Assembly: GCF_015708085.1 (NCBI RefSeq)
Contig: NZ_JADNYM010000005.1
Location: forward strand, 124,001-188,000
Length of the DNA stretch: 64,000 nucleotides
From: Arthrobacter terrae
GTDB lineage: Bacteria; Actinomycetota; Actinomycetes; Actinomycetales; Micrococcaceae
Direction of reading: 5' to 3'
Made by a program: the position numbers and the translations under genes. Below the pieces are notes generated by a model. That model ran no database searches. It was not told where the DNA came from and saw only the letters and a list, made by a program, of their open reading frames with translations. Positions 35,353 to 52,319 of this stretch are shown here, piece after piece. How positions within the stretch are numbered: the first letter of the stretch is position 1; every line of letters starts with the position of its first letter.

Positions 35353-36020
35353 TGAGCAACGGCATCTACGGCCGGGCCGCCACCGGTCTGCAGGACACGT
35401 CCTGGGCGGTGAATGAGAACGTCGCGAAAATCGGCGCTAAAGGTGAGCAGAAGACCGAGGCGCTGCTGAACGGCTTCGCCATGAAAGCTGCCGTCCTGCA
35501 CGACCTGAGGATCCCGATCCCCGGGTTCAAAGCCAACATCGACCACGCCATAGTCTCGGGCAGGTCGGTGCTGCTGATTGACTCCAAAATGTGGAAGCCC
35601 GGGTTCTACTGGTCCATGCTCGGCTACCGCCGCGGCTGGGAGAAGACACCGCACGTCGGCAAATCCCAGGAGTACGTCTCCAAGGCGATGAACACGTTCC
35701 TGAACGGGACCGGTGCCCGCGTCCTCACTCCGCGCCTGGTTGTCTGGTCCTCCCGTGACAACCAACCGGTGAGCACCTGGATGCTCACCGTTCCAGGAGC
35801 CGAAGTGGTCAACGGGCTGCGCATCGTGCCCGTTGTGAAATCTTTCGTCCGGGGCGGCTCCGCGGACCCGGCCATCGTGCGCCGGCTCCAAGAACTGCTC
35901 GTCAAAGCCCCGCGCGCAGCAAAGCAGACCGCGCATTGGTCAGACACCGACCAGTTCAAAGCCCCGCCGCCGCGGCCGGCCCGCGTCGACGTCTACGCAG
36001 ACAACGACCCGTTCGCCTAA
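35352..36020 (+). CDS. NERD-domain (nuclease-related) protein
   Basis: 222 aa. The NERD core is visible: GAKGEQKTEALL, VLHDLRIP, NIDHAIVSGRSVLLIDSKMW (D...DxK, PD-(D/E)xK-type active site). The C-terminus ends VYADNDPFA, an acidic -DPFA tail that is repeated at the end of the next protein. Likely a DNA-processing or DNA-binding component of the transfer machinery. Confidence 0.75.
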   Translation: MSNGIYGRAATGLQDTSWAVNENVAKIGAKGEQKTEALLNGFAMKAAVLHDLRIPIPGFKANIDHAIVSGRSVLLIDSKMWKPGFYWSMLGYRRGWEKTPHVGKSQEYVSKAMNTFLNGTGARVLTPRLVVWSSRDNQPVSTWMLTVPGAEVVNGLRIVPVVKSFVRGGSADPAIVRRLQELLVKAPRAAKQTAHWSDTDQFKAPPPRPARVDVYADNDPFA

Positions 36021-36112
36021 ACCGCGCACCGGCGGCCGCCCCTCACGGAGACCGCCGCTGGGGCGCCCGGCGCATAGAGAACGCAGGAAGCTTTCACGAC
36101 GGAAAGGCCATC

Positions 36113-39100
36113 ATGGCTGCACCACGCAGGAACCAGGCACCCGGCAAACCGATCACCCCGCTCGTGATGCTCGGCGCCGCCGCCGCTGCCGGTTACGCCA
36201 TCTACCAGGGTTACCCCGGCATCGCCCTCATCTGGGCCGGGCTGCTCGTCTCCGCGTGGACGCACCCGCCGGCCATGTTCACCGGCAAGAAAGACGCCCG
36301 CGGCTACCCGTCGCCGGCGCATCCGGGCGAGCAGGCGACCATGAACAAGTACCGGCACTGGGAGGACCTGAAATTCAAACTCGTCCTGCCCAACGTGGAT
36401 TGGCTCCCCGGACTCAAGCCGCGCCTGTCTTTCCTCGTCGCCCTCTGGGCCGGGTCCGCCGCCTACCTGATCCCGGTCAAAGACGAAACCTACACCAACG
36501 GGTACGGCCCGTGGATCAATGCCGCCGCCGCGTTCCTGGCCATCGTCCAATACTCCGCGTCCCGGCGTCGCACCCAGGTTGCCGACGATGAAAACCCCGG
36601 GGCGCGCGTTGATTCGCTGATCGCCCTCGCAAAGAAGAACGTCGCAAAAGTGATCGGTCTGACCATCGCAGGCATTGTTGTCGGCGGCATCGTCGGCACG
36701 GTAGCGACGGTGCTGCTGCCGCTGGCCACGACCGCGTTCGGGGTCCACGCCATCCCGGACCCGGCCATCTGGGCGCTGGTCCTCACAGGCGGACCCCTAG
36801 CTCTGCTGTCGAGGGCGTGGATCACTGAAGCGCTCGAACACTGGAGGATCGTCGTCGCAGCCCGCGAAGAATGGAAAGGCCGGTGGGAGATGCTCAAACA
36901 GGACCCGGCTCCGCGGCTCATTGACCGGCAGGAAGTCGGCTCCGCCATCATCGACACCTTCGACGCCCCGGCCGGGACCGGCGCCGCACCATACTTCGTC
37001 ATGGCCGACAAGATCAACCCGACCCTGGGGACGGGCGCAAAATTCGCGGTCCTGGACGTCCCCAACCTTGACTCCAACAACTCCCCCGTCCCTGGCACCA
37101 AACACCCGCTGCGGTTCGAGATCGTCCGCTGGCCCTCCGACCAGATGCCTGACATCACCGACCCGGAAACCCCCAAAGAGGTCGTCTACCAGCTGGTCCG
37201 CTGCGCGATCGCGTGGGCCGCCGACGGTGTCTACTCCCGGCCCGTCATCGACGACGTACACCTGCTCACCTGCCCGCCGGCCCCTGCCGGAGATGACGAA
37301 AAGCGGGCACCCGCCGGCGGCGCCGCATGGGCCATCACCTGGTATCTGCCGGACGGGCCGCCCCCTTCCTACATCCGGGCCAACGGCCGCAACGAAATGC
37401 AGGACGCCCTCCAAGCCCACGTCCTCGTCGACCACCGGGCACAAAACGGCAACGGCTGCGCGTACGCGGGTGCGCTACTGGACCCTGACACCAACTGGGA
37501 CCCGTCCTGCGGGCTGACCACCAAGGACATGAAAAAACTCGCTGACGAAGACCAATGGAACAACCGCTGGGCCGAAGCCGCCCCGAAACACAAAGCAAAC
37601 CCTCCCGTCATGGAAGCCTCCACCGCCAGCACCGCCCGGCTCAAAAACGGTGTCACCATCAACCACCTGGCCTTCATTACCCGCCAGGGCATGACCCCGC
37701 ACGACTTCTTCCTATTCGAGCCCGCCCTGCCGTCTACGTTGAACGCCGCACCGTTCGTCGCCATGACCGGCTTCCCCGGCACCGGTAAACGCCCGGGCGA
37801 ACGCCACCCGCAGGCGTTCAGCGTCCACTGGTCCACCGAGTCCGTGCCCGCCAAACCCGACGACCTGGCACCGGTCCCCCGCTCCGAGGGGCCAAAATGG
37901 GTCCTCGCCGGCCTCGTCAACCAGGCGTTCAAAGCCGCCAAGCTGTCCGACCGCCCCGAGATCGCCGCCGTCACCTGCCTTACCAAACCGGAATCCCGCC
38001 AGCACATCTGGAAAATCGACCTGCGCCTGTACGGCGGCGTCACCCTCAACGACGTCCGCGGCATGGCGCAACGGATCCGCCAGCACTGGGCTTCGGACTG
38101 GCTGCGCGTCGCCGCCGCCCAAGACGGCTGCACCATCGTCGTCGGTGCCCGCCCCTCCAAAGTCCAGCTCGCCAGCCCCCGCCACGAGCAGTACCTCGAA
38201 TCCCTGAACTGGGACCAGGTGTTCCTGGACTCCGGGATCTCCGGCATCGGCGGCATGATGCCCGTGCTGACCAACGTTGACCACATGCCGCGGAACCAGC
38301 AGGTCTCCATCCTGGACTTCGACCTGCCCACCGGAATGGACTTCACCTCCTTCACCGGTGTCCGCACCAAGCTTGAATCCAACTCCGGCAACTCTTTCGT
38401 GGAGCCCCGCCGGATCAAGAACGCCTCCAATAAGATCCAGCTGCTCACCTGCGAAGTGAACCCTATGCCGGAAAAGGCCGGCTACGACTGGGACTACATC
38501 GACTCGTCTGATTTCATTCCGTTCGCGACCGGGGTTGACGGAGAGCCCGTGGAGTACAACTTTCGCGTCGACGCACACCTCCTTTGTGCCGGGGCATCAG
38601 GTGGGGGCAAATCGGTTTTGCTTCAATCCTTGGCCTACGGATGCCTGATTCGGGAGTACGAACTCTATGTTGCCGACCCCACCAAAGGGGGTGCCGACTT
38701 CAAATTCGCGGAGCCCTATGCGAAGGCTTTCACCGCTACGCCTTTCGAGGCGGCTGCCATGATGAAGGGAATTTACGCTGAGGTTGTCCGGCGAAAGAAC
38801 CTCAACACAGCTCACGAGGTAGGCAACTACCGTGACCTACCGGAGGACATCCGGCCCAAGCACATGGTCATTCTCCTCGATGAGTTCACCTCCCTGATGG
38901 GTCAAGACCCAGTGCCGCCTGCCAGCGATGACCCGGAGATGGATATCGAGCGGGACATGATCATCGCGACCAACAGGGCCAAGACAGAGGTCGGCGTCTA
39001 CGCCGGAAAGATTGCCCGTGAGGCCCGCTCGGCCGGAGCCACCCTCATTCTCGCGACACAGAAGCTGGCTGCAAAAATGCTCGACACCATCCCCGGGGCA

Positions 39101-40396
39101 GGGGATCTTAAGGTGAACCTTTCCCGTTTGCTGATGGGCAAGGCCACTTACGGGGACAAGCAATCCGCTCTTCGGGCTCCGCAGGATGCCCCGGACCTTG
39201 GTGACGCTATCCCGCCCGGCCGCGGACTCTTCGAAACTACTGCTGGCGCGGCCATGGCCATCCAAGCCTGGTATGACCCGGCTGAGCAAATCGTCCTACG
39301 GGAAAAACTGTCCCAGCGAATCGAGCCCTTGGCCGAATCCGCCAAACTCGAGCTGACCCCTTTCATGATGAAAATACCGGAGGTTGCCGGGGGTATATTT
39401 GCTCCGGCACCTGCTGTACGCCGACCTGCCACAGCAGCCGTCGTGGACCTGGGCGAGATCGAATTGGCTTTCGATGATCTGGACTGGTCAGAACTGGAAC
39501 TCACCGAGGACCAGCCGGCAGCGGCCGGGACTGTTCAGGATGACGCGGTCGAGGACACTGTCACCACAGTCAATGACGATGGTGATGATGAGCTGTTGTG
39601 GCCTGAGGACGAAGCAGAGCCCGACGTGGATGAAACCTCGGTGGTGTTCTTCGACGTTGACGGGTCCATCTCTCCGTTCACGTTCCGGGAAGGGTTGGAC
39701 CATATGGCGGCACCCGGGCATGGAACCGTCATGTTTGACCCTGCCGTCCTTGGCCGGATGGCAGCCCTCCCCGTCCTCCAGGCGTGGCTGAGCCCCTGGG
39801 AGGATGATGCACCGGATAACTTCGGGCACCTGCTCCCGCGGGCTGTGGAGGCGCTCATTGCCGACACTGAGGAGACCGGCTGGTGGAAAATTGACGCCGC
39901 CCTGGACTGGCTTCGTGAAAACCCGCGGATCCGACGGCTGGTCTGGATCGATGACGAGCTCGGCTCCGAAGATCCCATCCTGAGTCTGACCTACCAGGAC
40001 ATCGCTGCGGAAGCCTTCGAAGCTGCCGGGGTGGAGGCCCTGCTCGTCGTTCCCAACGCGGACCAGGGTGTCACCGACTCTGAGCTGGATGAGATCGAGG
40101 CGTTCTTCGACACGTCATCCCCAAGGACACGTGCTGCTGTGAGAGGAGAAGTCCCTGCAGAAGCTCCGGTTGCGGATCTGGTACCGGCGCCAGGAGTCAC
40201 CGCCGTGCCTGACGAGCTGGACTGGTCCGAGATGGAAGCGGACGTCGCCACACCGGCCACTGAGGAGTCCGGCGTCGAGGACCCGTTCACGGTCCCGGCA
40301 CCGGTCACCGCCGTGCCGGACCTGTTTGATGATCCGTTCGCGGAGACTGCCCCACGGAAGCGTTTCGTCCCAGATGATGACGATCCATTCGCCTAG
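36113..40396 (+). CDS. FtsK/SpoIIIE-like transfer ATPase with C-terminal HAD-like domain
   Basis: 1427 aa. Several N-terminal membrane segments within the first 240 residues, a large central region, then a P-loop motor: Walker A GASGGGKS (about 826) and Walker B MVILLDEF (about 918). After an acidic linker comes a HAD-like domain: VVFFDVDGSISPF (about 1176) and RRLVWIDDELGSEDP (about 1275). The protein ends in an acidic tail with two DDPFA repeats. Start ATG 36113 with GGAAAGG upstream. Probably the DNA pump for conjugation; the HAD fusion is unusual. Confidence 0.82.
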   Translation: MAAPRRNQAPGKPITPLVMLGAAAAAGYAIYQGYPGIALIWAGLLVSAWTHPPAMFTGKKDARGYPSPAHPGEQATMNKYRHWEDLKFKLVLPNVDWLPGLKPRLSFLVALWAGSAAYLIPVKDETYTNGYGPWINAAAAFLAIVQYSASRRRTQVADDENPGARVDSLIALAKKNVAKVIGLTIAGIVVGGIVGTVATVLLPLATTAFGVHAIPDPAIWALVLTGGPLALLSRAWITEALEHWRIVVAAREEWKGRWEMLKQDPAPRLIDRQEVGSAIIDTFDAPAGTGAAPYFVMADKINPTLGTGAKFAVLDVPNLDSNNSPVPGTKHPLRFEIVRWPSDQMPDITDPETPKEVVYQLVRCAIAWAADGVYSRPVIDDVHLLTCPPAPAGDDEKRAPAGGAAWAITWYLPDGPPPSYIRANGRNEMQDALQAHVLVDHRAQNGNGCAYAGALLDPDTNWDPSCGLTTKDMKKLADEDQWNNRWAEAAPKHKANPPVMEASTASTARLKNGVTINHLAFITRQGMTPHDFFLFEPALPSTLNAAPFVAMTGFPGTGKRPGERHPQAFSVHWSTESVPAKPDDLAPVPRSEGPKWVLAGLVNQAFKAAKLSDRPEIAAVTCLTKPESRQHIWKIDLRLYGGVTLNDVRGMAQRIRQHWASDWLRVAAAQDGCTIVVGARPSKVQLASPRHEQYLESLNWDQVFLDSGISGIGGMMPVLTNVDHMPRNQQVSILDFDLPTGMDFTSFTGVRTKLESNSGNSFVEPRRIKNASNKIQLLTCEVNPMPEKAGYDWDYIDSSDFIPFATGVDGEPVEYNFRVDAHLLCAGASGGGKSVLLQSLAYGCLIREYELYVADPTKGGADFKFAEPYAKAFTATPFEAAAMMKGIYAEVVRRKNLNTAHEVGNYRDLPEDIRPKHMVILLDEFTSLMGQDPVPPASDDPEMDIERDMIIATNRAKTEVGVYAGKIAREARSAGATLILATQKLAAKMLDTIPGAGDLKVNLSRLLMGKATYGDKQSALRAPQDAPDLGDAIPPGRGLFETTAGAAMAIQAWYDPAEQIVLREKLSQRIEPLAESAKLELTPFMMKIPEVAGGIFAPAPAVRRPATAAVVDLGEIELAFDDLDWSELELTEDQPAAAGTVQDDAVEDTVTTVNDDGDDELLWPEDEAEPDVDETSVVFFDVDGSISPFTFREGLDHMAAPGHGTVMFDPAVLGRMAALPVLQAWLSPWEDDAPDNFGHLLPRAVEALIADTEETGWWKIDAALDWLRENPRIRRLVWIDDELGSEDPILSLTYQDIAAEAFEAAGVEALLVVPNADQGVTDSELDEIEAFFDTSSPRTRAAVRGEVPAEAPVADLVPAPGVTAVPDELDWSEMEADVATPATEESGVEDPFTVPAPVTAVPDLFDDPFAETAPRKRFVPDDDDPFA

Positions 40397-41587: not shown

Positions 41588-41613
41588 GCAGGGGTTTGTC
41601 GCCAGACCCCTGC
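41588..41613. terminator. Hairpin before the first tagged gene
   Basis: Arms GCAGGGGT / ACCCCTGC. No T-run, so function as terminator is uncertain. Confidence 0.4.
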
Positions 41614-41615
41614 GC

Positions 41616-41627
41616 TGCCGCACACAT
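41616..41627 (+). promoter_or_regulatory. Class-2 start element (gene at 41635)
   Basis: TGCCGCACACAT, 7 nt to the ATG; no GGTGAG hexamer upstream. Confidence 0.6.
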
Positions 41628-41634
41628 AAGGGTT

Positions 41635-42243
41635 ATGGACAACACAACAACAGCAAACCGTGTACCGGCCGGAGTCATTACGGGAGGCCAGTTCGCCCCC
41701 ACACCGCATAATGAGCCCGCACTGACCCTGATCCCGGCACCCGTTGACGGTCCGGACTTCGACTATGAATTCGAAGCCGACCACGGGCCGGGCCTGGCCA
41801 AAGAGCTTCAGGCACTCCCGCGAATCCCGGCAAAGGCAGCCATCAGTGCCGGTCGGGTCGCGGACCTGATCCGGGACTCCTACGCCGTGTACTGGACCGG
41901 GGAGGACAGCGCTCCACGGACCCGCGCAGAGGCTGTGCAAGACCTTGAAGAAGCGCTGGGATACCTTCCCCGTGACAAACGCGAGCACCACATGCAGCTG
42001 ATCCGCTTCGCCGTCCATGAAGAGATGAAGCACTGGGCGGACAGCGGGCATGTCCTGAACCCGGAACACAAATATGAGCTGCTCATCGAGGAAGCCGACT
42101 ACACCGGTGAGGATGACCTGCTCGACAACGGCCAGGAAGAGAACCGGGAACGGTGGGAGCTGCTGGCCAACACGGCCGCCCACTACGCCGTGGCTGCAGG
42201 CAACGCCATCTCCGTCCAGCACAGCAGCGCCGCGGTCGCCTGA
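41635..42243 (+). CDS. Tagged protein 1
   Basis: 202 aa. N-terminal tag variant (VPAGVITGGQFAPTPHNEP, residues 9-27) followed by a mostly helical, acidic body of unknown function. First member of the tagged-protein island. Leaderless start at the ATG 7 nt after the class-2 element; followed by a terminator. Confidence 0.65.
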   Translation: MDNTTTANRVPAGVITGGQFAPTPHNEPALTLIPAPVDGPDFDYEFEADHGPGLAKELQALPRIPAKAAISAGRVADLIRDSYAVYWTGEDSAPRTRAEAVQDLEEALGYLPRDKREHHMQLIRFAVHEEMKHWADSGHVLNPEHKYELLIEEADYTGEDDLLDNGQEENRERWELLANTAAHYAVAAGNAISVQHSSAAVA

Positions 42244-42292: not shown

Positions 42293-42305
42293 GCGTGCCT
42301 GGGAC

Positions 42306-42335
42306 GATGAGCGTCTACGCATGTTCCTTACACAT
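42306..42335 (+). promoter_or_regulatory. Class-1 promoter with nested class-3 motif (gene at 42343)
   Basis: GATGAG, 15-bp spacer containing CTACGCATGTTC, CTTACACAT, 7 nt to the ATG. Confidence 0.65.
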
Positions 42336-42342
42336 GAGACAC

Positions 42343-42924
42343 ATGAAAGAAAACCCGGACAAGCCCATCGCACTCATCGACATGGACGGCACCTGGCTGC
42401 AGTGGGGTGTCCGGCTCAACGAGATCCTGTTACGGCTGGACCCTTCCTTCCCGATCGTCGACGACGACAAGCGTACTGGATGGGATGACCTGGCCGGCCC
42501 CGGCGCCAACCCGGAGGTACTGAAAGCGGCGATGAACCACCCGGATCTGTACACCGGACTGGACCCTGTCCCTTACGCCGTGGAAGCAATTCTTGAGATG
42601 GCGGATGAAGGATGGAACGTCTTCCATTGCTCCACCCCGACGTGGACCAACCCCGGATGCGTGGCAGGAAAACTGGCCGCCGTCGATCAGTATTTCGGAC
42701 CGGAATGGGCTGACCGGCTCATCCTCACCTACGACAAAACCGTGGTCAGGGGCGACGTCCTGGCCGACGATAAAGGCGTCATCACCGGGGCTGCAGTGCC
42801 GACCTGGAAGCACCTCATCCACGACCAGTCCCATAACCGCTCCGTGACAGGAACCCCGCGGATGACAGACTGGCGGGAATGGCGCGGCCATGTCTACCCG
42901 ATGCTGGGGGCTGTCTCCGTTTAG
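42343..42924 (+). CDS. 5'(3')-deoxyribonucleotidase-like HAD hydrolase
   Basis: 193 aa. HAD motif I is ALIDMDGTWLQW, motif II is in VFHCSTPTW, and the DDK-containing VLADDKGVI supplies motif IV-type residues. This is the plan of the NT5C deoxyribonucleotidase family, which dephosphorylates dNMPs; plasmid and phage copies may adjust nucleotide pools. Terminators flank it, so it is a single-gene unit. Confidence 0.75.
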   Translation: MKENPDKPIALIDMDGTWLQWGVRLNEILLRLDPSFPIVDDDKRTGWDDLAGPGANPEVLKAAMNHPDLYTGLDPVPYAVEAILEMADEGWNVFHCSTPTWTNPGCVAGKLAAVDQYFGPEWADRLILTYDKTVVRGDVLADDKGVITGAAVPTWKHLIHDQSHNRSVTGTPRMTDWREWRGHVYPMLGAVSV

Positions 42925-42931: not shown

Positions 42932-42968
42932 GGGGGCCGCACCACTTCACGGTGGTGCGGCCCCTTTC
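42932..42968 (+). terminator. Rho-independent terminator
   Basis: Strong hairpin (GGGGCCGCACCAC / GTGGTGCGGCCCC) with CTTTC after it. Confidence 0.8.
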
Positions 42969-43116
42969 GTGTATCCGGATCAGGAAAAGGCTCGTAAAGC
43001 AGTCCCCCCTTTCCGGTTCCGGAGCTTGCCGTAGAGCCCGTGAACCCGATTTTTTGGTTTTTCGTGTCCACAGCTCCAACGCCCCAAAACACGAAATGGC
43101 CCCCTATTTGGGAGCC

Positions 43117-43168
43117 ATGTGATAACCCTCGTCTCTAGGGGTCGGTACCGTTCCTCAGGTTATCACAT
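43117..43168. repeat. 11-bp inverted repeat
   Basis: ATGTGATAACC and GGTTATCACAT, perfect arms separated by 30 bp. Confidence 0.8.
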
Positions 43169-43514
43169 GAAACCAAATCTGTGGTCTCTCACCTTTGAAG
43201 CCACTCCACCGCCAAAACGGCCCGATCACGGGTGAAACGGACCTCACTCGCACAACACAACAGGCCTGCATCCCAGTGCTGGCGCGGATTTTGCCGGGTG
43301 CCGGACCCTCACTCGACCAAACCTACCTGGGGAGGGACATATATATGGAGAGAAAAGTACTCTCTCTATAAGGGGGAGGGGCTGAAGGGCAGAGAGCAAG
43401 GGGCCCCTTATATATATATATCTCTTAAGGTCGTTTAAGTAGAGTAGTAGTAGTAGGGGCCCTATATTCCCCGCCGTTCCGGGGATTTTCCCACTCGACC
43501 AAGTGGTAGGGTGA

Positions 43515-43537
43515 CGGTCGTTTGGTGGGAACGACCG
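43515..43537. repeat. 8-bp inverted repeat
   Basis: CGGTCGTT and AACGACCG separated by 7 bp. Confidence 0.7.
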
Positions 43538-43598
43538 GTAGGGCGGCAAATTAGCCCGACTGGGCATCTCTCAGGGCGCCGAAGCCTGTTTTGCCGGC

Positions 43599-43610
43599 AG
43601 CCGCACACAT
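43599..43610 (+). promoter_or_regulatory. Class-2 start element (gene at 43618)
   Basis: AGCCGCACACAT, 7 nt to the ATG. Confidence 0.65.
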
Positions 43611-43617
43611 AGCTGGC

Positions 43618-44517
43618 ATGACGACATCACAGAACCGGCAGCCCAAAGGGATCACCAACGGAGGGCAATTCGCCTCTGATGCCCATGCGGAATCCACCCT
43701 CCTGCTTGACCCGGCCCACCGCGCTGTAACCCTCGCCCCTGGCGACGGCGACACCTTCCCGGAACTGGCCGACGGTGAGGTCATCGAGACCCTGAACGTG
43801 AGCCGGTCCGATGACGGCTTCGGCTACTGGGTTTCCCCGGCTAAGACGATCAACCTGAAAGGGCTCATCACCGACGCAGACCCACGACTGCACGGGCAGA
43901 CCCTGGACGACTGGCTGGAGCGCAACAGCCCCGTCATCGAAGACTTCCTCGCCGAACGCTACGACGCCGACGTCACCACCGATGAAGGCTGGGACGAGGT
44001 CAGCGTTGAATGCACCGCTCAGCTTCCGGATGGACCACTGACCGAAGCCCAGGTCGTGGACGCAGCGTGGAACTGGACCAAAGTCGTCCAGCTGCACAAC
44101 GAATCCGATCACGGCTCCTTCAGGTCGGTGAACCTGGGCCGGCTCATCGTTGAACGCGTCCAAGACGCCACCGTCCTGACCAACCCGTACGCGGCCCGCA
44201 GCGCCGGCCTGCACCTGAGTGCGGACGAGATGGACGGCATGATCGAGGAGAGCCGGGGCAGCAGCCGTCCGGTCACCGACGCGACAGCCGTTGCCATCGC
44301 ACGGGAGCTCAACAGGATCCGCACCTCCCGTGGTGTGATCGCCTACCCGGCCGTTGGCCGGCTGGCCAGCCGCGGGTATCTGGACAACACCGCCGTGGAC
44401 CTGGAACTCTCCCGCGCGTCCGCGGCTAACCAGCAGTCCGTCTCCCCGGACCGGAAACTTGCCGCCCGGATCGAGGCAATGCAGTCGTGGATGAGCGACG
44501 GTGGCAGCCACGCATGA
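43618..44517 (+). CDS. Tagged protein 2
   Basis: 299 aa. Tag RQPKGITNGGQFASDAHAES (residues 7-26), then an alpha/beta body of unknown function with a helical C-terminal half. ATGA overlap with the frameshifted tagged gene that follows. Confidence 0.68.
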   Translation: MTTSQNRQPKGITNGGQFASDAHAESTLLLDPAHRAVTLAPGDGDTFPELADGEVIETLNVSRSDDGFGYWVSPAKTINLKGLITDADPRLHGQTLDDWLERNSPVIEDFLAERYDADVTTDEGWDEVSVECTAQLPDGPLTEAQVVDAAWNWTKVVQLHNESDHGSFRSVNLGRLIVERVQDATVLTNPYAARSAGLHLSADEMDGMIEESRGSSRPVTDATAVAIARELNRIRTSRGVIAYPAVGRLASRGYLDNTAVDLELSRASAANQQSVSPDRKLAARIEAMQSWMSDGGSHA

Positions 44518-44869
44518 GTGTCACCACCCGCCACCCCCGTGGAACGCGGGCCGGCGGACGGTTCGGCCCCACCGTGCGGACCGAGCCGTCACTGACCCTC
44601 TCCCCCTGCATGGCCTCAGCGGAGGTGTACCGCCGGTACACGGAAAACAAGATGGGCAAGAACGAACAGCGCGCCTGGTCCAGGGGGCCTACGATTCCGG
44701 GTTGCTGCACCGGATGGCCGGAAACCGGAACCGCAACGAGGTGGACGCCGTCATGGCGGCCGCGACGGATGACGACAAGCTGGACGCCGCGATCCATGGC
44801 GTCACGCCGGCGGACAGCATTGCATTCCAGCTGTGCCGAAACCTGCTCGCAACCCAGCGATCATCGTGA
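44514..44869 (+). pseudogene. Tagged protein 3, frameshifted
   Basis: A divergent tag (RHPRGTRAGGRFGPT then RTEPSLTL) is followed by a body read in one frame to about 44672 (KMGKNEQRA). The body then resumes one frame over (LVQGAYDSGLLHRMAGN...) to the stop at 44869. Restoring one base would give about 118 aa. A mutation or a sequencing error is possible. Confidence 0.6.
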
Positions 44870-44961
44870 GCGTCCTGCGCGAGATTCCGGCCAGCCGCGA
44901 GGGCAACTTCTTCGGCTGGGATCAGCTGGTCCCCAAATTGCTCCACAGGAACAAGAACTAG
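44866..44961 (+). CDS. Small hypothetical protein
   Basis: 31 aa, GTG overlapping the previous stop (GTGA). Sequence SVLREIPASREGNFFGW then a basic end. Coupling supports it. Confidence 0.4.
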   Translation: MSVLREIPASREGNFFGWDQLVPKLLHRNKN

Positions 44962-45099
44962 GAACCCCGGTAAAAGCGAGCCAGCGTGATCCCGCTCCGG
45001 ACGTCGAAGGGCATCACGAGGAGGATGGTTCACCGATTCCGTCGAGACCGGATCGTCCCTCAGAGTTCCTGCCCGGAACCACGTAGCAGTAAACCTCCT

Positions 45100-45130
45100 G
45101 AAGCCCCGCACCCCTGGACTGCGGGGCTTC
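45100..45130 (+). terminator. Hairpin terminator
   Basis: 11-bp perfect arms GAAGCCCCGCA / TGCGGGGCTTC; weak T content after it. Confidence 0.6.
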
Positions 45131-45145
45131 GCCATTCCCGGCAAC

Positions 45146-45157
45146 CGCCGCACACAG
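45146..45157 (+). promoter_or_regulatory. Class-2 start element (gene at 45165)
   Basis: CGCCGCACACAG, 7 nt to the ATG. Confidence 0.6.
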
Positions 45158-45164
45158 CACTAGT

Positions 45165-45677
45165 ATGACTTTCACCGCAAACGATCACCCGCGCGGATTC
45201 GGCGGACGCTTCACCTCCACCGTCCACGCCGAACCGGGGACCACGCTGACCGCGCCGGAGCCTTCGGATACGATCCAGTGCCGCCGCCTTGAAGCAGCCC
45301 AGATGGTCCTCGCTGATTACCGTGAAATGGAAATTTTGGACCATTCCCCGGCCGGGCGCGAAACCGTCACACTCGGTGAGCTCGGGGATCCCGCACTGGC
45401 CCTGGGCAACTGCTGGGCCGCCACGGGCGAACTCATCGAACAGGTGGGCGCGTCCGAGTTCGATGTCGACTGGCTGGATGAAATCACGATCAGGCGGGCC
45501 CGGCTGGGAGGCCAGCATGTTGCTGTCCTTGCCGGGGACCGGGACGGGCAGTTCGTCATCGACTTCACGGCCCGGCAGTTCCATCCCGAGCTTCCTTTCC
45601 CGTACGTCGCCGGCGTCGACGAGTGGAAAGCCATAGTGGAGCGCGCCTCGGGAACCCGATGGATCATGGACGATTGA
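45165..45677 (+). CDS. Tagged protein 4: papain-fold-like with Cys-His-Asp triad
   Basis: 170 aa. Divergent tag (DHPRGFGGRFTSTVHAEPG, residues 7-25). The body has GNCWAATGEL (Cys83), GGQHVAVLAG (His118) and FVIDFTARQFHP (Asp133), the same motif set as the untagged 22456 protein. This order fits papain-like deamidases, cross-linkers or proteases. If active, it could modify a host or recipient protein. Confidence 0.65.
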   Translation: MTFTANDHPRGFGGRFTSTVHAEPGTTLTAPEPSDTIQCRRLEAAQMVLADYREMEILDHSPAGRETVTLGELGDPALALGNCWAATGELIEQVGASEFDVDWLDEITIRRARLGGQHVAVLAGDRDGQFVIDFTARQFHPELPFPYVAGVDEWKAIVERASGTRWIMDD

Positions 45678-45714
45678 GCTTTCCGGTGTGGCGCTGCGCG
45701 TTTTGCATCCAAGC

Positions 45715-45723
45715 CGTACACGA
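45715..45723 (+). promoter_or_regulatory. Class-2-like start element (gene at 45731)
   Basis: CGTACACGA, 7 nt to the ATG. Confidence 0.5.
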
Positions 45724-45730
45724 TAGAGGT

Positions 45731-46417
45731 ATGCCACTACCTAAGCAGCCATTCTTCAAGAAAAAATCTGTGCAAAATCAGCAGCCTGCAGGTGCCCCCA
45801 ATTCCACCGGCGGGCAATTTGTCCCCACGCAACATGCCGAACCGGATGTCACATTGCCCTCCAATGAGAAGTCGATCTTCACTGAGGCGGACAATGAGCC
45901 GGACATCTTTGCGGATTCACCAACCACTGACGGTTACTCGCGCAATGTGCCCGCGAACGACTTCCTCGACAGCCCCGAAGATCCCATAATCCTCTCTCCC
46001 TACCCCGCTGTCGGACTTCCCGCCAAGCGCCCAACCGCCGGCGGACTTCCCACCAGTCCTGCTGCGGCTGACCTCCAACAGCGCGAGGCCAGCCAAAACA
46101 TCGTGTTCGCCGCGGCTAAGAAGTACGCGTCTCATTTGCTGAACGCCAGAACTGTCAGCATCTCCTCTGACGACAAGGGGTATCTGCATGTCGATGAAGT
46201 CAGGGATCACGCCAACGAATCCATGTTCATGAACAATGACAGTCGATCCTCTGTCGCTAGCTCGCTGCAGTTCGAAATCAGGGCTAATGTCCCCTACGGC
46301 GTTCCCCTTCCAGCGCATCACGTCCTCGGTGATCTGAAATCCGCTTCAATTGATGCGTCAGCCCTGCTCAGGGGCGAAATCAAAATCGTCGGTTTCGGAA
46401 AGCCCGCCCCCTTCTGA
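45731..46417 (+). CDS. Tagged protein 5
   Basis: 228 aa. A basic start (MPLPKQPFFKKKSVQ) precedes the tag (QQPAGAPNSTGGQFVPTQ, then HAEPDVTL). Then a disordered Pro/Asp-rich region to about residue 115 and a folded C-terminal domain. No family recognised. Confidence 0.62.
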   Translation: MPLPKQPFFKKKSVQNQQPAGAPNSTGGQFVPTQHAEPDVTLPSNEKSIFTEADNEPDIFADSPTTDGYSRNVPANDFLDSPEDPIILSPYPAVGLPAKRPTAGGLPTSPAAADLQQREASQNIVFAAAKKYASHLLNARTVSISSDDKGYLHVDEVRDHANESMFMNNDSRSSVASSLQFEIRANVPYGVPLPAHHVLGDLKSASIDASALLRGEIKIVGFGKPAPF

Positions 46418-46514
46418 TATTTCTCTGTCCAAAACTCGCCCGCGCCGGATGTCCCGACGCGGGCGAGTCGTCTTTGAGGGTTTGCTTCCATCAGATTTGC
46501 GCGGATTTTCGTCG

Positions 46515-46526
46515 GGCCGCACACAG
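46515..46526 (+). promoter_or_regulatory. Class-2 start element (gene at 46534)
   Basis: GGCCGCACACAG, 7 nt to the ATG. Confidence 0.62.
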
Positions 46527-46533
46527 ACAAGGT

Positions 46534-47505
46534 ATGACCGAAAATATCAGCCGCCAGCCCAAGGGGGTTCCGGTCGGTGGCCAGTTCGCCGCCACCACCC
46601 ATACCGAACCTGAACTGTCTCCTCTGACGTCGGTTACCCCGTTCCACGATGCGGATGGCACCGACTGGGAGTTCGGCGGGGATGAGTACACGGACGTCTA
46701 CAACTCGTTTCAGCACGCAGTCGAGGTCCGCATCACCACTGACATCCGCGAAGACGGCGCCTACGCGACAGTCACAGACTTCCGCAGGAACCGCCCACTG
46801 GTCCTTGGCGACCGGACCCATCATGAGTCCTTGGAGGAAGCCAAGGCGCACGGCAAAGCGATCCGGGAACGGGCTAACAGCTACGAGCACAACCACATCG
46901 GGGAAGGATCCCGCTCCCCGTGGGGGAAGCTGCAGGGTGTCGACCCTGTGGCGGTCGGCATTGACGCCGTCTGGACGGAGCGGCATGGCGGTTTCAAACT
47001 ATCCCCGGAGCGCGCTGCGGAGGTAGACCCGGCCTGGCGTGAAGTTGCCGGCTGGTATGAGCAGGACTGCGCGTGGGCCAAGGCCATCATCACCCACCAT
47101 CAGGATCTGAAGCCGGCCGATGTTGCCGGGGCTCACAAAGCAGCACGCGAATATTACCCGGATGAGTACACGGCAATTGTCGGCAAGGATCCCGCCAAAT
47201 ACGGTCTCGCTTCTTTTCAGCCGATCACCGCTGCCGAGTCGTCGATTATCGAAACACGCGAATTCCTGGCCGCACGTGCCGACACGCATGTCCGGGTCGA
47301 ACGAGTAAATCTGACGCCGGAAGGGCATTCCGGCATGGTTTCCGTCGACGTTCATGACATCCCTGCGGACGGCCGCGATGAGGAAGACAGCCCTGCCGTC
47401 AACGCCCGCACCATTCTGGTCCCAGAGCAGGAGTGGAAAATGCCGTGGACGGAGCGCCGGACCATTCCAAAGTCGGACGCATACCAGACCCTGGAGCTCG
47501 CTTAG
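46534..47505 (+). CDS. Tagged protein 6 with DUF7007-like domain
   Basis: 323 aa. Tag RQPKGVPVGGQFAATTHTEP (residues 7-26). Residues about 125-220 (SPWGKLQGVDPVAVGIDAVW, then GGFKLSPERAAEVD) resemble DUF7007, a domain found in plasmid proteins that include putative antirestriction factors. The role here is unknown. Confidence 0.66.
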   Translation: MTENISRQPKGVPVGGQFAATTHTEPELSPLTSVTPFHDADGTDWEFGGDEYTDVYNSFQHAVEVRITTDIREDGAYATVTDFRRNRPLVLGDRTHHESLEEAKAHGKAIRERANSYEHNHIGEGSRSPWGKLQGVDPVAVGIDAVWTERHGGFKLSPERAAEVDPAWREVAGWYEQDCAWAKAIITHHQDLKPADVAGAHKAAREYYPDEYTAIVGKDPAKYGLASFQPITAAESSIIETREFLAARADTHVRVERVNLTPEGHSGMVSVDVHDIPADGRDEEDSPAVNARTILVPEQEWKMPWTERRTIPKSDAYQTLELA

Positions 47506-47544
47506 CCGTCATTGCACCGGTTAGACCAAGGTCACCGTCACCAC

Positions 47545-47585
47545 GGAACTGCAGCCCCAGGATTGGCCCCGGGGACTGCAGTTCC
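47545..47585 (+). terminator. Hairpin between tagged gene 6 and the nuclease gene
   Basis: Arms GGAACTGCAGCCCC / GGGG(A)CTGCAGTTCC, one bulged base; directly followed by a class-3 CTACGCATGTTTTT element. Confidence 0.55.
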
Positions 47586-47656
47586 TGCGTCTACGCATGT
47601 TTTTCAGAGAGGCCCGCCATAAGGCCGGCACGCCACCTCTTTGTTTTTGGAGATCC

Positions 47657-48565
47657 GTGAAAAGCCCTTCTCTCGTTACCCGATCATTGGCAGTCCTTGT
47701 GCTGGGTGCCTCTATTCTTGCGGTGGCCGCACCTGCGCAGGCCGCCCCGGCCAGGACCTCCGTGAAGGTCGCCTCCTTCAATGTCGACTCCGCCTGGCGC
47801 CAGAAGGTTGACCCGTCCATCCCCGGCTGGGACGCCCGCGTCCAGGGCATCGGCCGGATCATTAACACAGCGAATCCGGATGTCGTAGGCATTCAGGAGG
47901 CTCCCGACATCAACATTGACGGGCGCGTCTACCATCAGGGCGACGACATCAGCCGCCAGACCGGTTTCAAGATGTACCAGCCATCAGACCCTGCCGCGAA
48001 GCTTGATCCGATCCTCTACCGCAGCGTACTTTTCGACATGACAGGGTCAGGCTACAAGGTGTTCGAGCAGAAGCCCTACCCGAACTACGGCAAGGTGATG
48101 ACCTGGGTGAAGTTGCGTTCCAAGGCCACCGGACAGTCTTTCCTCGTCGCCAACACCCACTTCCAGGTCGGGGCTGACAAGCAGGCTGACCGGGACCGTG
48201 AAGGCGCCCTGCTGGCCGATGAGGTCCGGCGCATTTCAGGTGGTCTCCCTGTCTTCGTGACCGGGGATTTCAATGCCAGTGCCTCCAAGAACGCACCTCA
48301 GACAAAGAACCTTGCGGCCATCGGGCTGAAGGACATGTACGCCATGACCTCTGACCGGATGCACCCGGAAATGAAGACATACAACGGATACCAGTGGCCA
48401 GTTGCGGGTTCTTCACGAATCGATCAGGTCTACGCCGGAGCACCGGCAGGTAAAGACCTGAAAGTCAGCTACTGGGAGAACTGGACGGCTTACGGCAACC
48501 AGATCATTGGTGGCCGGCAGCCGTCGGATCACGACATGATCTACGCCGTGGCGACGTTCAAGTAG
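47657..48565 (+). CDS. Secreted endonuclease/exonuclease/phosphatase-family nuclease 1
   Basis: 302 aa from GTG 47657 (GGAG upstream). Sec signal peptide ending AxA (VLVLGASILAVAAPAQA). DNase I-fold active-site motifs: ASFNVDSA, VVGIQEAP, VTGDFNAS and SDHDMIYA. An exported nuclease or phosphodiesterase on a conjugative element could act on extracellular DNA or on the cell surface. A longer paralog is at 55796. Confidence 0.82.
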   Translation: MKSPSLVTRSLAVLVLGASILAVAAPAQAAPARTSVKVASFNVDSAWRQKVDPSIPGWDARVQGIGRIINTANPDVVGIQEAPDINIDGRVYHQGDDISRQTGFKMYQPSDPAAKLDPILYRSVLFDMTGSGYKVFEQKPYPNYGKVMTWVKLRSKATGQSFLVANTHFQVGADKQADRDREGALLADEVRRISGGLPVFVTGDFNASASKNAPQTKNLAAIGLKDMYAMTSDRMHPEMKTYNGYQWPVAGSSRIDQVYAGAPAGKDLKVSYWENWTAYGNQIIGGRQPSDHDMIYAVATFK

Positions 48566-48644
48566 TACCTTCCCTCCGTGCCGCGGCATTTGTTTTCGTC
48601 TTGCGCGAGGCAGCCGGCGTCCCCTGATCGGCAAATTCTTTGAC

Positions 48645-48675
48645 AGCAGGCCCCGGTACAGTGCCGGGGCCTGCT
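48645..48675 (+). terminator. Rho-independent terminator
   Basis: 12-bp perfect arms AGCAGGCCCCGG / CCGGGGCCTGCT, then GTGTTT. Confidence 0.75.
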
Positions 48676-48687
48676 GTGTTTCCCGGC

Positions 48688-48699
48688 AGCCGCACACAG
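48688..48699 (+). promoter_or_regulatory. Class-2 start element (gene at 48707)
   Basis: AGCCGCACACAG, 7 nt to the ATG. Confidence 0.65.
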
Positions 48700-48706
48700 T
48701 CCAGGT

Positions 48707-49303
48707 ATGAGCATCAGTATTGTTACCCGCCCCCGGCCGATCCGCCGGCTCGATGGCGAGAAGGTCTTCGAACGCCGCAACCTGACCGTCACAGTGGACC
48801 AGATCGTCCACCCCGACGGCCGGGACGGCGAATACGTCCTGGTCGACACGGGCTGCCGCTACGCCGTTTCGGTCATCCCTTTAGCTGTCATTGACGGCGA
48901 AGCCAGGATCGCTCTGGTCCGCCAGCACCGCTACCCGGTTGACGATTACACCCTTGAGCTTCCCGGGGGCGGCGCCTCAGCGATCGCACCGCAGGAAGCC
49001 CTGCGGGAACTTGTCGAAGAAACCGGCATCATCCCTGACTCCATTGAACTCCTTGGTGTTTCCTACCAGGCAGCAGGATCCTCCCCGATCACCGGCTCCA
49101 CCTGGCTCGCACACGTCCCGGCCGCCGCGGCGGACCTGGCCTACGTTGAAGGCGAATCCGGCGCCGTCACCGAGTGGTACACGGTCCCCGAGATCCTGAC
49201 CATGATGGCTACCGGCACGATCAACTGCACCATCACCCTCGCCGCCCTGGCGCAGGCAATCGTTGCCGGTAAGTTCGGCACCCTTATGAAGGAATGCTCA
49301 TGA
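48707..49303 (+). CDS. NUDIX hydrolase (ADP-ribose pyrophosphatase-like)
   Basis: 198 aa. The NUDIX box is visible (LPGGGASAIAPQEALRELVE then ETGI). The N-terminal arm and LVRQHRYPVDDYTLELPGG are as in ADP-ribose pyrophosphatases. It has no tag but is translationally coupled (ATGA) to tagged protein 7. A plausible link to NAD+/ADP-ribose chemistry exists with the RES toxin at 33927. Confidence 0.85.
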   Translation: MSISIVTRPRPIRRLDGEKVFERRNLTVTVDQIVHPDGRDGEYVLVDTGCRYAVSVIPLAVIDGEARIALVRQHRYPVDDYTLELPGGGASAIAPQEALRELVEETGIIPDSIELLGVSYQAAGSSPITGSTWLAHVPAAAADLAYVEGESGAVTEWYTVPEILTMMATGTINCTITLAALAQAIVAGKFGTLMKECS

Positions 49304-50316
49304 CCACTGACACCACCACCCGCCAGCCTAAAGGCGTACCAGTCGGCGGGCAGTTCGCCGCTACGGCACATTCTGACTCGGTAGCAGCACTGGAACGGCC
49401 TGCTATCGAAGACCTGACCTTCAGCCATAACGATGACGAGTATGAGATCGAACGCGATGGTAACGGCCGCTACACGATTTACTCCGACGAGAGTGAGGTC
49501 GCCTCGTTCACCTACGACGCGGACCCTGCCGACCGGTCGGCGCTGGAGACCGCTGCTGTCGCCGCACTGACCGAACAGAATGAACGCCTCAAGCTGGTCA
49601 CCTCCCCCGGCGCCCGTGTCCTGTGGACTGATCCGGACGGCTGCGCGGTCCATCCCGGAAAGGTGGTTGCCGCCGAAGGCGAAATCGTCACGGTGGCTCT
49701 GACTTCCGGCGGAGAAGCTGAAGTATTCGGTAACGAACTCACCGTCGATGAGGCTGCCACCTCAAAGCATCGGGATGCGATCTCACCGATTGACACCCCG
49801 GTTGTCTGGACTGACCCGTCCACCGGCAAGAAACATCACGGCCGGTCCCTTGGCTCCATTGGCGGTGACAACTTCGCTATCCAGATCCCGTTCGCCGGCA
49901 GAGGGTTCAGCGCAGCCAAAGCTCATGATCTCGAACTGGCTGCCGCCGGACCTCCTGCGCCGCCGGTGAAGTTTACTGAGCCGAACCGGAAAATCCGGGG
50001 GCACAACTTTTACGCCCCCAAAGCGGTCCTGTCCAAGGTACCTGCCCTGGGTGCAACGGAAGACACCCCGCTGGAGGAGAAAAAGTTCCACCTGCACTAT
50101 TTCACCGGCGGAGCCGCCAACTGGTACATCGCAGAATACGATCCCGCCACAGGTAAAGCTTTCGGACTGATGGACCCCTCCGGCCGCGGCGACGGCTCCT
50201 GGGGTTACGTCAGCCTTCCCGAGCTGGAAGCCTACAACCCGTCCGGGTACCGCGTCATCGAACGGGACTGCTACTTCTCCCAAGGCAACCTCGCCCACGT
50301 CACCCGCAACAACTGA
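49300..50316 (+). CDS. Tagged protein 7 with DUF2958-like domain
   Basis: 338 aa. Tag RQPKGVPVGGQFAATAH at residues 8-24. A beta-rich middle is followed by a C-terminal domain (residues about 230-310; GGAANWYIAEYDPATGKAFG, GSWGYVSLPELE) that matches the DUF2958 plan seen on many mobile elements. Starts inside the stop of the NUDIX gene. Confidence 0.68.
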   Translation: MTTDTTTRQPKGVPVGGQFAATAHSDSVAALERPAIEDLTFSHNDDEYEIERDGNGRYTIYSDESEVASFTYDADPADRSALETAAVAALTEQNERLKLVTSPGARVLWTDPDGCAVHPGKVVAAEGEIVTVALTSGGEAEVFGNELTVDEAATSKHRDAISPIDTPVVWTDPSTGKKHHGRSLGSIGGDNFAIQIPFAGRGFSAAKAHDLELAAAGPPAPPVKFTEPNRKIRGHNFYAPKAVLSKVPALGATEDTPLEEKKFHLHYFTGGAANWYIAEYDPATGKAFGLMDPSGRGDGSWGYVSLPELEAYNPSGYRVIERDCYFSQGNLAHVTRNN

Positions 50317-50340
50317 TCCGCCGGCCAGGAGCATTCCGTT

Positions 50341-51555
50341 ATGAAGACAGACCCAAATCGTCAGCCCAAGGGTGTCCCGGTCGGCGGCCAATTCGCCGCC
50401 ACCACCCACAATGAAGCAGCGTTCACCCTGGCCAGTCCGGGACCGGCGCTGCCTGAACTTGAAGCGTACGGGGAAATCCCGACACCCCTGAAAGGGCAAA
50501 CGCTCGAGACCGGGGAACCCGCTGAAGCTACCTTTGAGGGCTCCTACCGGGCGTATTTCCGCCCACTGGATGAGTACGAAACGAGCCACGGGCCGTTTAC
50601 AGGCCAGCAGCCGATCTCTGAAGCTGAGATTCTCGACCTTGCCGGTATCGGCGAGGAAAACCTGGGTCGCCACCGAGGCACCTCGCTCGAGCGTGACGAT
50701 GACACGGGCGAACCTGTCATTGTGGTCTATACGCGTAACGGCGGCGGCAACCGGGAATGCTGGCAGGATGACTGCGACGGCCAATGCACCGGCTGCATCC
50801 AGACCGACGCCATTCCCGCACTGCCCACCTACCTTCGAGACGAAGACGACGAGGGTGACAGAACCTACGCGAACAACTACTTTTGTCCTGTCGATGCGGC
50901 CACCGGCCGTGCCGCGCTCGAAGCCCAGGAGAGGCAGCAGCTGCTTGGCCGCCTCAAGTATTTCCGGGATGCCATCACCACCGGCAAGCAACCCCCGTGG
51001 TCTGTTTTGTCCCCTGTCCTGGCAGAATCGGAGAGGAACGATCTGCGGTACAAGCTGCAGAAGCTGCGCGAGCAGGCTGGTTACCGTGCCAGGGACCGGC
51101 GCTACGCTGACGCTGTGCAGGAAGCTCTCGGGAGCGGCGCCAATCTCCCAGCTTCCGGAATGGCACGGGTCCCGAGTGCGTACTACACCTACAACACCGC
51201 ACTGCAATACCAAGCCATAAAGGAAGCGGCGGCGACCACAGCCCGCTCCGAGGCGGAGACGCTTGCTGGTGAGCTGACGGGAGCGCTGCCGCCAGCGGTC
51301 ACCGCACTGGCCGTCGCAGAATATGACAGGCTCAGCGACAGCGCCACGAAACTAGAGGCCGGGGCCCTAGAGAGCAAGGAGAAACTCGCGGCCGCCGCGG
51401 CGGTGATGAAAAACTGGGCCGCACTTCAACACCGGGCTGCAGACGAAGCTGACGCAAAAGTAACCGAGGCGCAGAACATATTGAACAACTTCGACTGGTC
51501 AGCATCATTCCCTGGCGATACCAAAGACTGCCTGCCCCGTCCGACAGACTCCTGA
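50341..51555 (+). CDS. Tagged protein 8
   Basis: 404 aa. Tag RQPKGVPVGGQFAATTHNEA at residues 7-26. Middle region with a cysteine cluster (NRECWQDDCDGQCTGCIQ) that probably binds metal. Long helical/coiled-coil C-terminal half (residues about 190-390). AGGAG ribosome site. Confidence 0.66.
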   Translation: MKTDPNRQPKGVPVGGQFAATTHNEAAFTLASPGPALPELEAYGEIPTPLKGQTLETGEPAEATFEGSYRAYFRPLDEYETSHGPFTGQQPISEAEILDLAGIGEENLGRHRGTSLERDDDTGEPVIVVYTRNGGGNRECWQDDCDGQCTGCIQTDAIPALPTYLRDEDDEGDRTYANNYFCPVDAATGRAALEAQERQQLLGRLKYFRDAITTGKQPPWSVLSPVLAESERNDLRYKLQKLREQAGYRARDRRYADAVQEALGSGANLPASGMARVPSAYYTYNTALQYQAIKEAAATTARSEAETLAGELTGALPPAVTALAVAEYDRLSDSATKLEAGALESKEKLAAAAAVMKNWAALQHRAADEADAKVTEAQNILNNFDWSASFPGDTKDCLPRPTDS

Positions 51556-51564
51556 CCACCATCC

Positions 51565-51592
51565 AGCAGCCCCGGATTATTTCGGGGCTGCT
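51565..51592 (+). terminator. Rho-independent terminator
   Basis: Arms AGCAGCCCC / GGGGCTGCT, then CTGTTATC. Confidence 0.7.
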
Positions 51593-51604
51593 CTGTTATC
51601 CCGC

Positions 51605-51616
51605 AGCCGCACACAC
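51605..51616 (+). promoter_or_regulatory. Class-2 start element (gene at 51624)
   Basis: AGCCGCACACAC, 7 nt to the ATG. Confidence 0.65.
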
Positions 51617-51623
51617 TCCTGGT

Positions 51624-52133
51624 ATGAGCACAGACACGACCAATCGCCAGCCCAAAGGCATCCCGACCGGCGGTCAATTCGTCCCGACATCCCACACGGA
51701 ACCCGATCTGCACCTCGATCCGGTCAAATCTTCCCCTGAGGGCACCTGTTCAGAATGTGATGAAACCGTCGAAGATTTCCAGTCTGAACCCGGCCTCTGT
51801 GAAGGTTGTAACTCCGAACATACCTGCCGGGAATGCGGCAATCGAAATGATCTTGGCGGGTACGGTTACGACGGGCTATGCATCAATTGTGCCGACAAGG
51901 AATTTGACGATGAAGAAGACGAAGACAGCGACGTTGTGTGTGTCTTCGACCATGAGGGGGCCTCTATCCAGGTCGACCACTGCGGCGAGGATAATTACGC
52001 GCTCTACGACGAGGAAACCAACGAGCATCTCGCTGACTTTGAGTTTGTCGGTGATCCTGAAGATCATTCAGAACTGGAGGAGGAAGCCATCCAAGCCTTG
52101 AGGGTGGTTCGGACTGCACACAGAAGTGTATGA
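51624..52133 (+). CDS. Tagged protein 9 with zinc ribbons
   Basis: 169 aa. Tag RQPKGIPTGGQFVPTSHTEP at residues 8-27. Four CxxC-type pairs (GTCSECDE, GLCEGCNS, HTCRECGN, GLCINCAD) suggest two small zinc ribbons. Very acidic C-terminal half. Confidence 0.66.
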   Translation: MSTDTTNRQPKGIPTGGQFVPTSHTEPDLHLDPVKSSPEGTCSECDETVEDFQSEPGLCEGCNSEHTCRECGNRNDLGGYGYDGLCINCADKEFDDEEDEDSDVVCVFDHEGASIQVDHCGEDNYALYDEETNEHLADFEFVGDPEDHSELEEEAIQALRVVRTAHRSV

Positions 52134-52235
52134 CCACGAGCAACGCAGCACGACAGCCCGCGAAGGGATTTCAGTCTGTTCAGATGCTCCGCTTCCCGCT
52201 TCACTTCGCTGCGACGTCGAACATTGCCCACCGCG
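52130..52235 (+). pseudogene. Relic of a tagged gene start
   Basis: A degenerate start region: TGCACACAG, 6 nt, ATG, then MTTSNAARQPAKGFQSVQ, which begins like a tag (RQP-KG) and then loses it. Immediately followed by the copy B terminator-promoter block. Likely left by recombination between tagged genes. Confidence 0.45.
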
Positions 52236-52260
52236 GCCGGAAAATTCCCGACCACCGTCC

Positions 52261-52288
52261 AGCAGCCCCGGATTATTTCGGGGCTGCT
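52261..52288 (+). terminator. Rho-independent terminator
   Basis: Arms AGCAGCCCC / GGGGCTGCT, then CTGTTTTC. Confidence 0.72.
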
Positions 52289-52300
52289 CTGTTTTCCCGC

Positions 52301-52312: not shown

Positions 52313-52319
52313 TCCTGGT

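Follow-up and report, generated by a model that had tools for sequence, protein, structure and literature searches.

The segment at 42969-43598 of the window, by which the whole analysed stretch of 64,000 nucleotides is meant, carries one copy (copy A) of an element that is repeated in the host genome and on related megaplasmids. Judged from its sequence and surroundings, the segment probably, at modest confidence, holds copy A of an origin-type element that is dispersed in several copies over a Micrococcaceae megaplasmid; a plasmid initiator would open the core of the element, and copy B would be the main origin. The preliminary description had proposed a candidate replication origin at this position. 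The proposal held as to kind, given the repeats on both sides of the core, the weakest DNA of the plasmid, and a copy located beside a primase-helicase-like gene, but the segment is one of four copies. Since the copy adjoining this gene is B and not A, copy A may not be the main origin.

The segment was confirmed to be gene-free, with an NT5C-family gene stopping at 42924 and the ATG of a tagged gene at 43618. The preliminary description missed that the element within it is multicopy, with borders at about 43082-43557. The features of copy A and its surroundings are the following:

42295..42924, plus strand: upstream gene, NT5C-family 5' nucleotidase
42933..42964, no strand: 13-bp hairpin 3' of the NT5C-family gene, outside the element
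43082..43557, plus strand: element copy A, the whole repeated module of ~470 bp
43116..43169, no strand: inverted-repeat module CATGTGATAACC-N30-GGTTATCACATG
43282..43320, plus strand: left arm with the GCGCGGATTTTGCC block and the repeat unit CACTCGACCAA
43333..43422, no strand: purine-rich and TA-rich core, candidate unwinding element
43429..43472, plus strand: GGTCGTTTAAGTAGAGTAGTAGTAGTAGGGGCCCTATATTCCCC block, near-invariant among 12 copies
43479..43538, plus strand: right arm with the CCGGGGATTTTCCC block and the CACTCGACCAA and GGTCGTTTGG...AACGACCGG repeat units
43618..44517, plus strand: N-terminally tagged protein gene (QPKGITNGGQFA), neighbour of the element

The hairpin at 42933-42964 probably terminates transcription of the NT5C-family gene. 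The tagged protein (43618..44517) matched no Pfam or NCBIfam family at the limits used. Its type of N-terminal tag, RQPKG-xP-xGGQFA, occurs in the window at 41596-42243 and 43591-61587 and is scattered over all plasmids, with 24 tagged ORFs on two host contigs, 37 on pACHL01, and 28, 21, 29, and 23 on four others, where they are clustered but not restricted to a single region. Further upstream in the window, 35936-40396 encodes a 1486-aa protein that has an FtsK/SpoIIIE domain and, at its C terminus, a HAD-type domain (HAD_SAK_2, below the Pfam cut-off).

A mechanical ORF of 107 aa in the ORF list (minus strand, 43244-43567) overlaps the segment. Across the four host copies, the longest stop-free runs on the minus strand measured 102, 102, 84, and 63 codons; those of the four pACHL01 copies measured 56-121 codons, and the frames differed. 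A coding role for this ORF was dropped because it is not consistently open across these copies.

The TA runs reported for the segment were found at 43340-43346 and 43409-43421, and the purine blocks at about 43347-43358 and 43370-43403. An inverted repeat had been reported with perfect 11-bp arms; the arms are indeed perfect, but their length was understated and amounts to 12 bp (CATGTGATAACC at 43116-43127 and GGTTATCACATG at 43158-43169, separated by 30 bp). Arms of at least 12 bp appeared in 0/200 dinucleotide shuffles of the segment and arms of at least 11 bp in 2/200. The GTGATAAC...GTTATCAC form of this repeat is present in all 12 copies of the host, pACHL01, and pYJN5-1, in one of four copies each in A. 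caoxuetaonis and zg-Y1110, and in none of the five in pPA-B-2242. Further inverted repeats are located at 43096-43118 (9 pairs), 43405-43430 (complementarity of 75%), and 43516-43536 (GGTCGTT/AACGACC).

In a BLAST search of the whole host genome, the segment matched C56:171099-171555, C45:78092-78550, and C56:60776-61217 with 99, 98, and 89% identity, respectively, and two extra matches of 31-67 bp were confined to the tag-coding end of the query. With the element alone as query, exactly four places were found in the host genome, and a search of four other genomes of the genus gave no match. Copy A shares 97-99% identity with C45:78085-78555 (copy B) and C56:171085-171555, and 84-89% with the copy at about C56:60760-61217. 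The window belongs to contig C45. Contigs C45 and C56, which together make up 387 kb, appear from their shared gene content to resemble one megaplasmid.

Five named plasmids of Pseudarthrobacter, Paenarthrobacter, and Arthrobacter contain related DNA. The complete megaplasmids pACHL01 (from the soil strain Pseudarthrobacter chlorophenolicus A6), pYJN5-1, and those of A. caoxuetaonis zg-Y453 and zg-Y1110 carry four copies each, and pPA-B-2242 carries five, identified by short conserved blocks. The block TATATATA is confined to the elements in all seven sequences and is absent from one pYJN5-1 copy. No match to the element was obtained among phage records. The annotation of the pACHL01 record lists secY/secE/secG, dnaE, ligA, nrdIEF, an umuD/Y-family polymerase pair, and tad-type pilus genes.

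The four positions (A-D) of the host, pACHL01, and pYJN5-1 correspond to one another by their neighbouring genes. Position A lies next to the tagged gene, and position B between a Cas4/RecB-like nuclease on one side and the primase-helicase-like gene on the other. Position C neighbours a gene without family that is divergent from a helicase-like AAA gene, and position D a protein that matches a Holliday-junction-resolvase-like PHROG. Copies A, B, and D occupy the same positions in A. caoxuetaonis and zg-Y1110, but gene C stands without the element there and the fourth copy is located between convergent gene ends, where the right arm of the A. caoxuetaonis copy extends to the stop codon of the opposing gene. 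In pPA-B-2242, two copies are inverted: the B copy, which keeps its place, and the copy near A, which lies about 5 kb from the relative of gene A.

The copies resemble their plasmid-mates more than the copies at the same locus elsewhere, which is concerted evolution. The 12 copies of the three closest plasmids were aligned, giving 18 pairs within a plasmid, 12 pairs at the same locus, and 36 pairs sharing neither. Mean identities for these three groups were 0.76, 0.60, and 0.59 in the left arm, 0.81, 0.62, and 0.61 in the core, 0.97, 0.87, and 0.87 in the right block, and 0.94, 0.88, and 0.86 in the inverted-repeat module, respectively. Same-locus pairs thus scarcely exceed pairs that share neither plasmid nor locus. 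No within-plasmid excess was found in the 32 columns of the left edge (0.60 vs 0.61). Host copies A, B, and D are 99% alike, and in pYJN5-1 only A and B are close (0.94), with the remaining pairs at 0.67-0.72. Gene conversion, we infer, is the cause of this likeness.

Duplex stability was calculated from nearest-neighbour energies in 60-bp and also in 30-bp windows. In pACHL01, pYJN5-1, A. caoxuetaonis, and zg-Y1110, the four 60-bp loci of lowest stability are the elements, as are the two of lowest stability on C45 and on C56. On C45, one of the two weakest is the 60-bp stretch from 43408 and the other lies in copy B. The elements of pPA-B-2242 took stability ranks 1-4 and 6 in 60-bp windows, and in 30-bp windows every element was within the top seven of its sequence. 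As expected of the A+T-rich unwinding region of an iteron-type origin, the elements thus hold the weakest or near-weakest predicted 60-bp duplexes. Purine asymmetry was less consistent, as only some elements ranked with the 12 windows of strongest skew, and no element of zg-Y1110 did.

Short repeats face one another across the TA/purine core. The pentamers of A. caoxuetaonis, zg-Y1110, and pPA-B-2242 are of a single type within each element, directed rightward on the left side of the core and mostly leftward on its right side; the step between them is 9 close to the core and at the right end mainly 10-11 (9-12). The pentamer itself differs by lineage (CCAAC/CCGAC vs CGACC and variants), and its order and spacing are kept. 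A shorter version of the pattern is present in pACHL01, and the copies of the host and of pYJN5-1 hold few repeats (5-7 and 2-5 pentamers each, respectively). As the motifs were picked from the elements themselves, their enrichment there is partly circular, and the informative part is that dense motif clusters occur nowhere else in these plasmids and that the spacing survives sequence change. A motif-blind density of 7-mers placed three of four pACHL01 copies, three of four A. caoxuetaonis copies, and all five pPA-B-2242 copies in the top 4% of windows; it was not significant in the host, pYJN5-1, zg-Y1110, Curtobacterium, and most other relative loci. The repeat arrays are candidate initiator-binding iterons, with a grammar shared by the dense-repeat lineages.

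One copy, B (C45:78085-78555 in the host), is located just past the end of the primase-helicase-like gene in six of six plasmids. The distance from the gene end is about 150 bp in the host and pACHL01 and 163 bp in pYJN5-1, and the element follows directly in the other three. The gene is located at 331747-334899 in pACHL01, where it encodes a 1050-aa protein, and at C45:78707-83311 in the host. Two sub-threshold Pfam matches (DUF3854 with E 0.0098 and RNA_helicase, a P-loop helicase domain, with E 0.024) and a conserved P-loop, GPKGKGKS, suggest the name primase-helicase, and the protein had no PHROG match and no PDB sequence match. The host gene contains an in-frame intein-like insert of several hundred residues within the Walker A motif/P-loop, which is absent from the homologs of the five other plasmids. 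The gene order at copy B is ParA, a 362-aa partner, a sigma-like protein, the primase-helicase-like protein, and the element. In pACHL01, the sigma-like protein (330638-331642, 334 aa) has the look of a divergent sigma factor, based on a weak Pfam match to sigma region 3 and an alignment.

Relatives of the primase-helicase-like protein were found in 11 of 395 genomes of the family, which include the host and apparently two of the named plasmids; one of these relatives amounts to a fragment of about 100 residues. Among plasmids, relatives besides the five occurred in three Curtobacterium megaplasmids at about 34% identity. No relative was found in viral contigs and phage records, and a search of genome contigs yielded a single locus (L126), which lacks TATATATA. 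In the three Curtobacterium megaplasmids, core-like sequence was recognised by eye just before the gene. Further candidate copies are present in NZ_CP126255 (one), in NZ_CP126274 (two, the second with E 8e-5), and in CP018784 (two, the second weak with E 0.02). The PLSDB table also holds a 102-bp NDM-19 prediction for Curtobacterium plasmid D40 (L183:23726-23827), which is probably a false positive because it is short.

At 13 other loci of the gene, stretches of 20 to 300 kb were examined. The weakest 60-bp duplex of the stretch was located within 1.5 kb of the gene in nine of them, and the nearby weak spot took rank 2 in two, rank 3 in one, and rank 27 in one of the remaining loci. From the absence of TATATATA, relatives outside the named megaplasmids had been taken to lack the element, a view that was overturned as weak-duplex sites adjoin the gene at most loci. 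By tblastn, ParA and the 362-aa partner were found at five of the 13 loci (G139, G154, and the three of Curtobacterium) and not at the other eight, in four of which the stretches measure just 20-23 kb. Four of the nine loci with the weakest duplex were without detected ParA or partner (G160, G185a, G376, and L126). A core-like piece recurs in G121 and G162. In G162, a 520-bp inverted pair (C1 4469213-4469732 and 4474319-4474838, 519/520 identical) is located on a contig of 4.76 Mb, and its core resembles that of A. caoxuetaonis by eye.

In each of the five complete plasmids, cumulative GC skew peaks at a distance of 8-13 kb from copy B, and neither GC skew nor gene strand resets at copies A and D. 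The skew suggests one dominant origin, and its maximum near B makes B, the copy beside the primase-helicase-like gene, the likely main origin. The position expected of an adjacent initiator gene likewise fits copy B and not copy A, the initiator itself being a candidate. In pACHL01, strand-independent third-position skew, evaluated by hand, is negative over the second half of the B-D interval, at D, and onward to C, and is positive or close to zero in the remainder. Sign changes are thus confined to the vicinity of C and to the B-D interval and are absent at A and D, which does not support four equal bidirectional origins in long-term use. It is doubtful that the plasmids hold four or five equivalent origins that share one initiator and stay alike through gene conversion, a multi-origin arrangement of the archaeal kind in a bacterium.

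In the favoured mechanism, a plasmid-encoded initiator, most likely the primase-helicase-like protein next to copy B, would bind the phased short repeats on both sides and, once bound, open the TA/purine core. Copies A, C, and D would be extra origins, dormant origins, or initiator-binding sites for copy control or handcuffing, and may alternatively be centromere-like sites. Gene conversion would keep the copies alike, and the repeat sequence would drift jointly with its binder.

The preliminary description had also considered the segment as an oriT, with the tagged genes as the leading region, and this part was not supported. An oriT is unlikely because the same element occurs at three other places, searches for three relaxase families gave no match on C45 or C56, and nothing locus-specific is conserved on the left, as alignment with the two closest named plasmids at the orthologous locus begins only at about 43094. 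Of these families, MobA/MobL had no match in the host genome, and TrwC and Relaxase (PF03432) matched only on other contigs (C21 and C18). No relaxase was present among 11 Pfam-scanned ORFs of the upstream block either, and the five related plasmids are typed as non-mobilizable by PLSDB. A leading region does not agree with tagged genes on both sides of the element, one of them upstream at 41596-42243, nor with 37 of them scattered over pACHL01. Copy A does come after a TraG-like gene (TraG-D_C with E 0.0016, below the cut-off) and an FtsK-domain gene that weakly matches TraB, and the relaxases on other contigs of the genome could act in trans. With copies B, C, and D carrying the same element elsewhere, an oriT or clt-like transfer site used by the upstream-encoded FtsK/TraB-like or TraG-like proteins is nevertheless very improbable. 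A structured RNA gene or a single-strand promoter of the Frpo type is less credible still. Each strand folds better as single-stranded DNA than its shuffles (z -2.1, 1/100, and z -3.1, 0/100), but inverted DNA repeats alone yield such folding, and the copies are not all on one strand. An Rfam RNA was rejected, as no match reached the gathering score in the window and the segment gave only weak matches to implausible families.

A dispersed partition centromere, in which a binding protein such as the 362-aa protein encoded with the long ParA would load on phased repeats at four sites, is rather unlikely, and a shared promoter or regulatory region, through which a plasmid sigma factor or regulator would control the genes beside the copies, somewhat more so. 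The phased short repeats fit a centromere, as do the ParA and 362-aa partner genes near copy B, and dispersed centromeres are reported for N15 and pMF1 in passages of PMC3235114. The copies are also evenly spaced, with chances of a smallest gap this large of 0.003 in pACHL01, 0.011 in pYJN5-1, and 0.008 in pPA-B-2242, and of 0.15 and 0.14, not significant, in A. caoxuetaonis and zg-Y1110, all of which are not independent because the plasmids are related. However, a centromere has no need to coincide with the weakest duplex of the plasmid, and weak-duplex sites adjoin the primase-helicase-like gene also where ParA and the 362-aa partner were undetected. As to a promoter, most copies are located upstream of a gene start, and pACHL01 encodes both a helicase-sigma70 fusion and the sigma-like protein beside the primase-helicase-like gene. 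Orientation upstream of a gene is, however, not fixed: A. caoxuetaonis and zg-Y1110 each have one copy flanked by convergent gene ends, and the B copy and the copy near A of pPA-B-2242 are inverted relative to their neighbouring genes. A promoter role therefore fits poorly and leaves the convergent copies unexplained, and a fixed promoter was rejected on these placements. A scan for one promoter type only, sigma-70-like, found none at copy A.

The helicase-sigma-70 protein of pACHL01 (377249-380221) comprises 990 aa, the N-terminal half being helicase-like and the C-terminal half sigma-70. Its best host match is located near 32 kb of C45, and BLAST matches occur in all five other plasmids, those in the more distant plasmids perhaps covering one half only.

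The origin-type reading can be compared with several known systems. In passages of PMC7581432, the Rep helicases of SaPI (Rep) and SCCmec (Cch2) are described as binding iterons and opening origins, and the SCCmec origin, with 5-nt iterons, is placed directly downstream of the initiator-helicase gene or operon. The short repeats next to a primase-helicase-type gene are shared with the element described here, a likeness in layout. SaPI and SCCmec have one putative origin per element according to these passages, whereas four to five copies are spread here over about 400 kb. Several origins per replicon are described for archaea in passages of PMC4010727, where ORB-type origins likewise combine an AT-rich region flanked by repeats with an adjacent initiator gene. 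Multiple archaeal origins tend, in the same passages, to have distinct pairs of repeat and initiator, unlike the one repeat type and one candidate initiator found here in a bacterial host. The centromeres of N15 and pMF1 also consist of several repeat-bearing sites dispersed on one plasmid, but the element differs by its strong TA core and by a primase-helicase-like gene that stands beside a weak-duplex site also without detected par genes. No description of the element was found in titles and abstract starts of the open-licence PMC literature, and passages on pCPAA3 mention DNA polymerase III subunits and tmRNA but no such sites.

A single origin is generally assumed for bacterial replicons. 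R6K-type plasmids have several origins, which are clustered and depend on one iteron block; the likeness to the megaplasmids lies in more than one origin on one plasmid, and the difference in that clustering on one block. Four or five origin-type sites, mostly about 100 kb apart, would offer a direct test of whether several equal origins can be used by a bacterial replicon or have to be suppressed, and the family would also test how a repeat and its binder change together. If the sites are centromeres, they would represent an unusual dispersed layout of partition. Either way, the element provides a recognisable landmark for a poorly known megaplasmid family that is typed as non-mobilizable by PLSDB.
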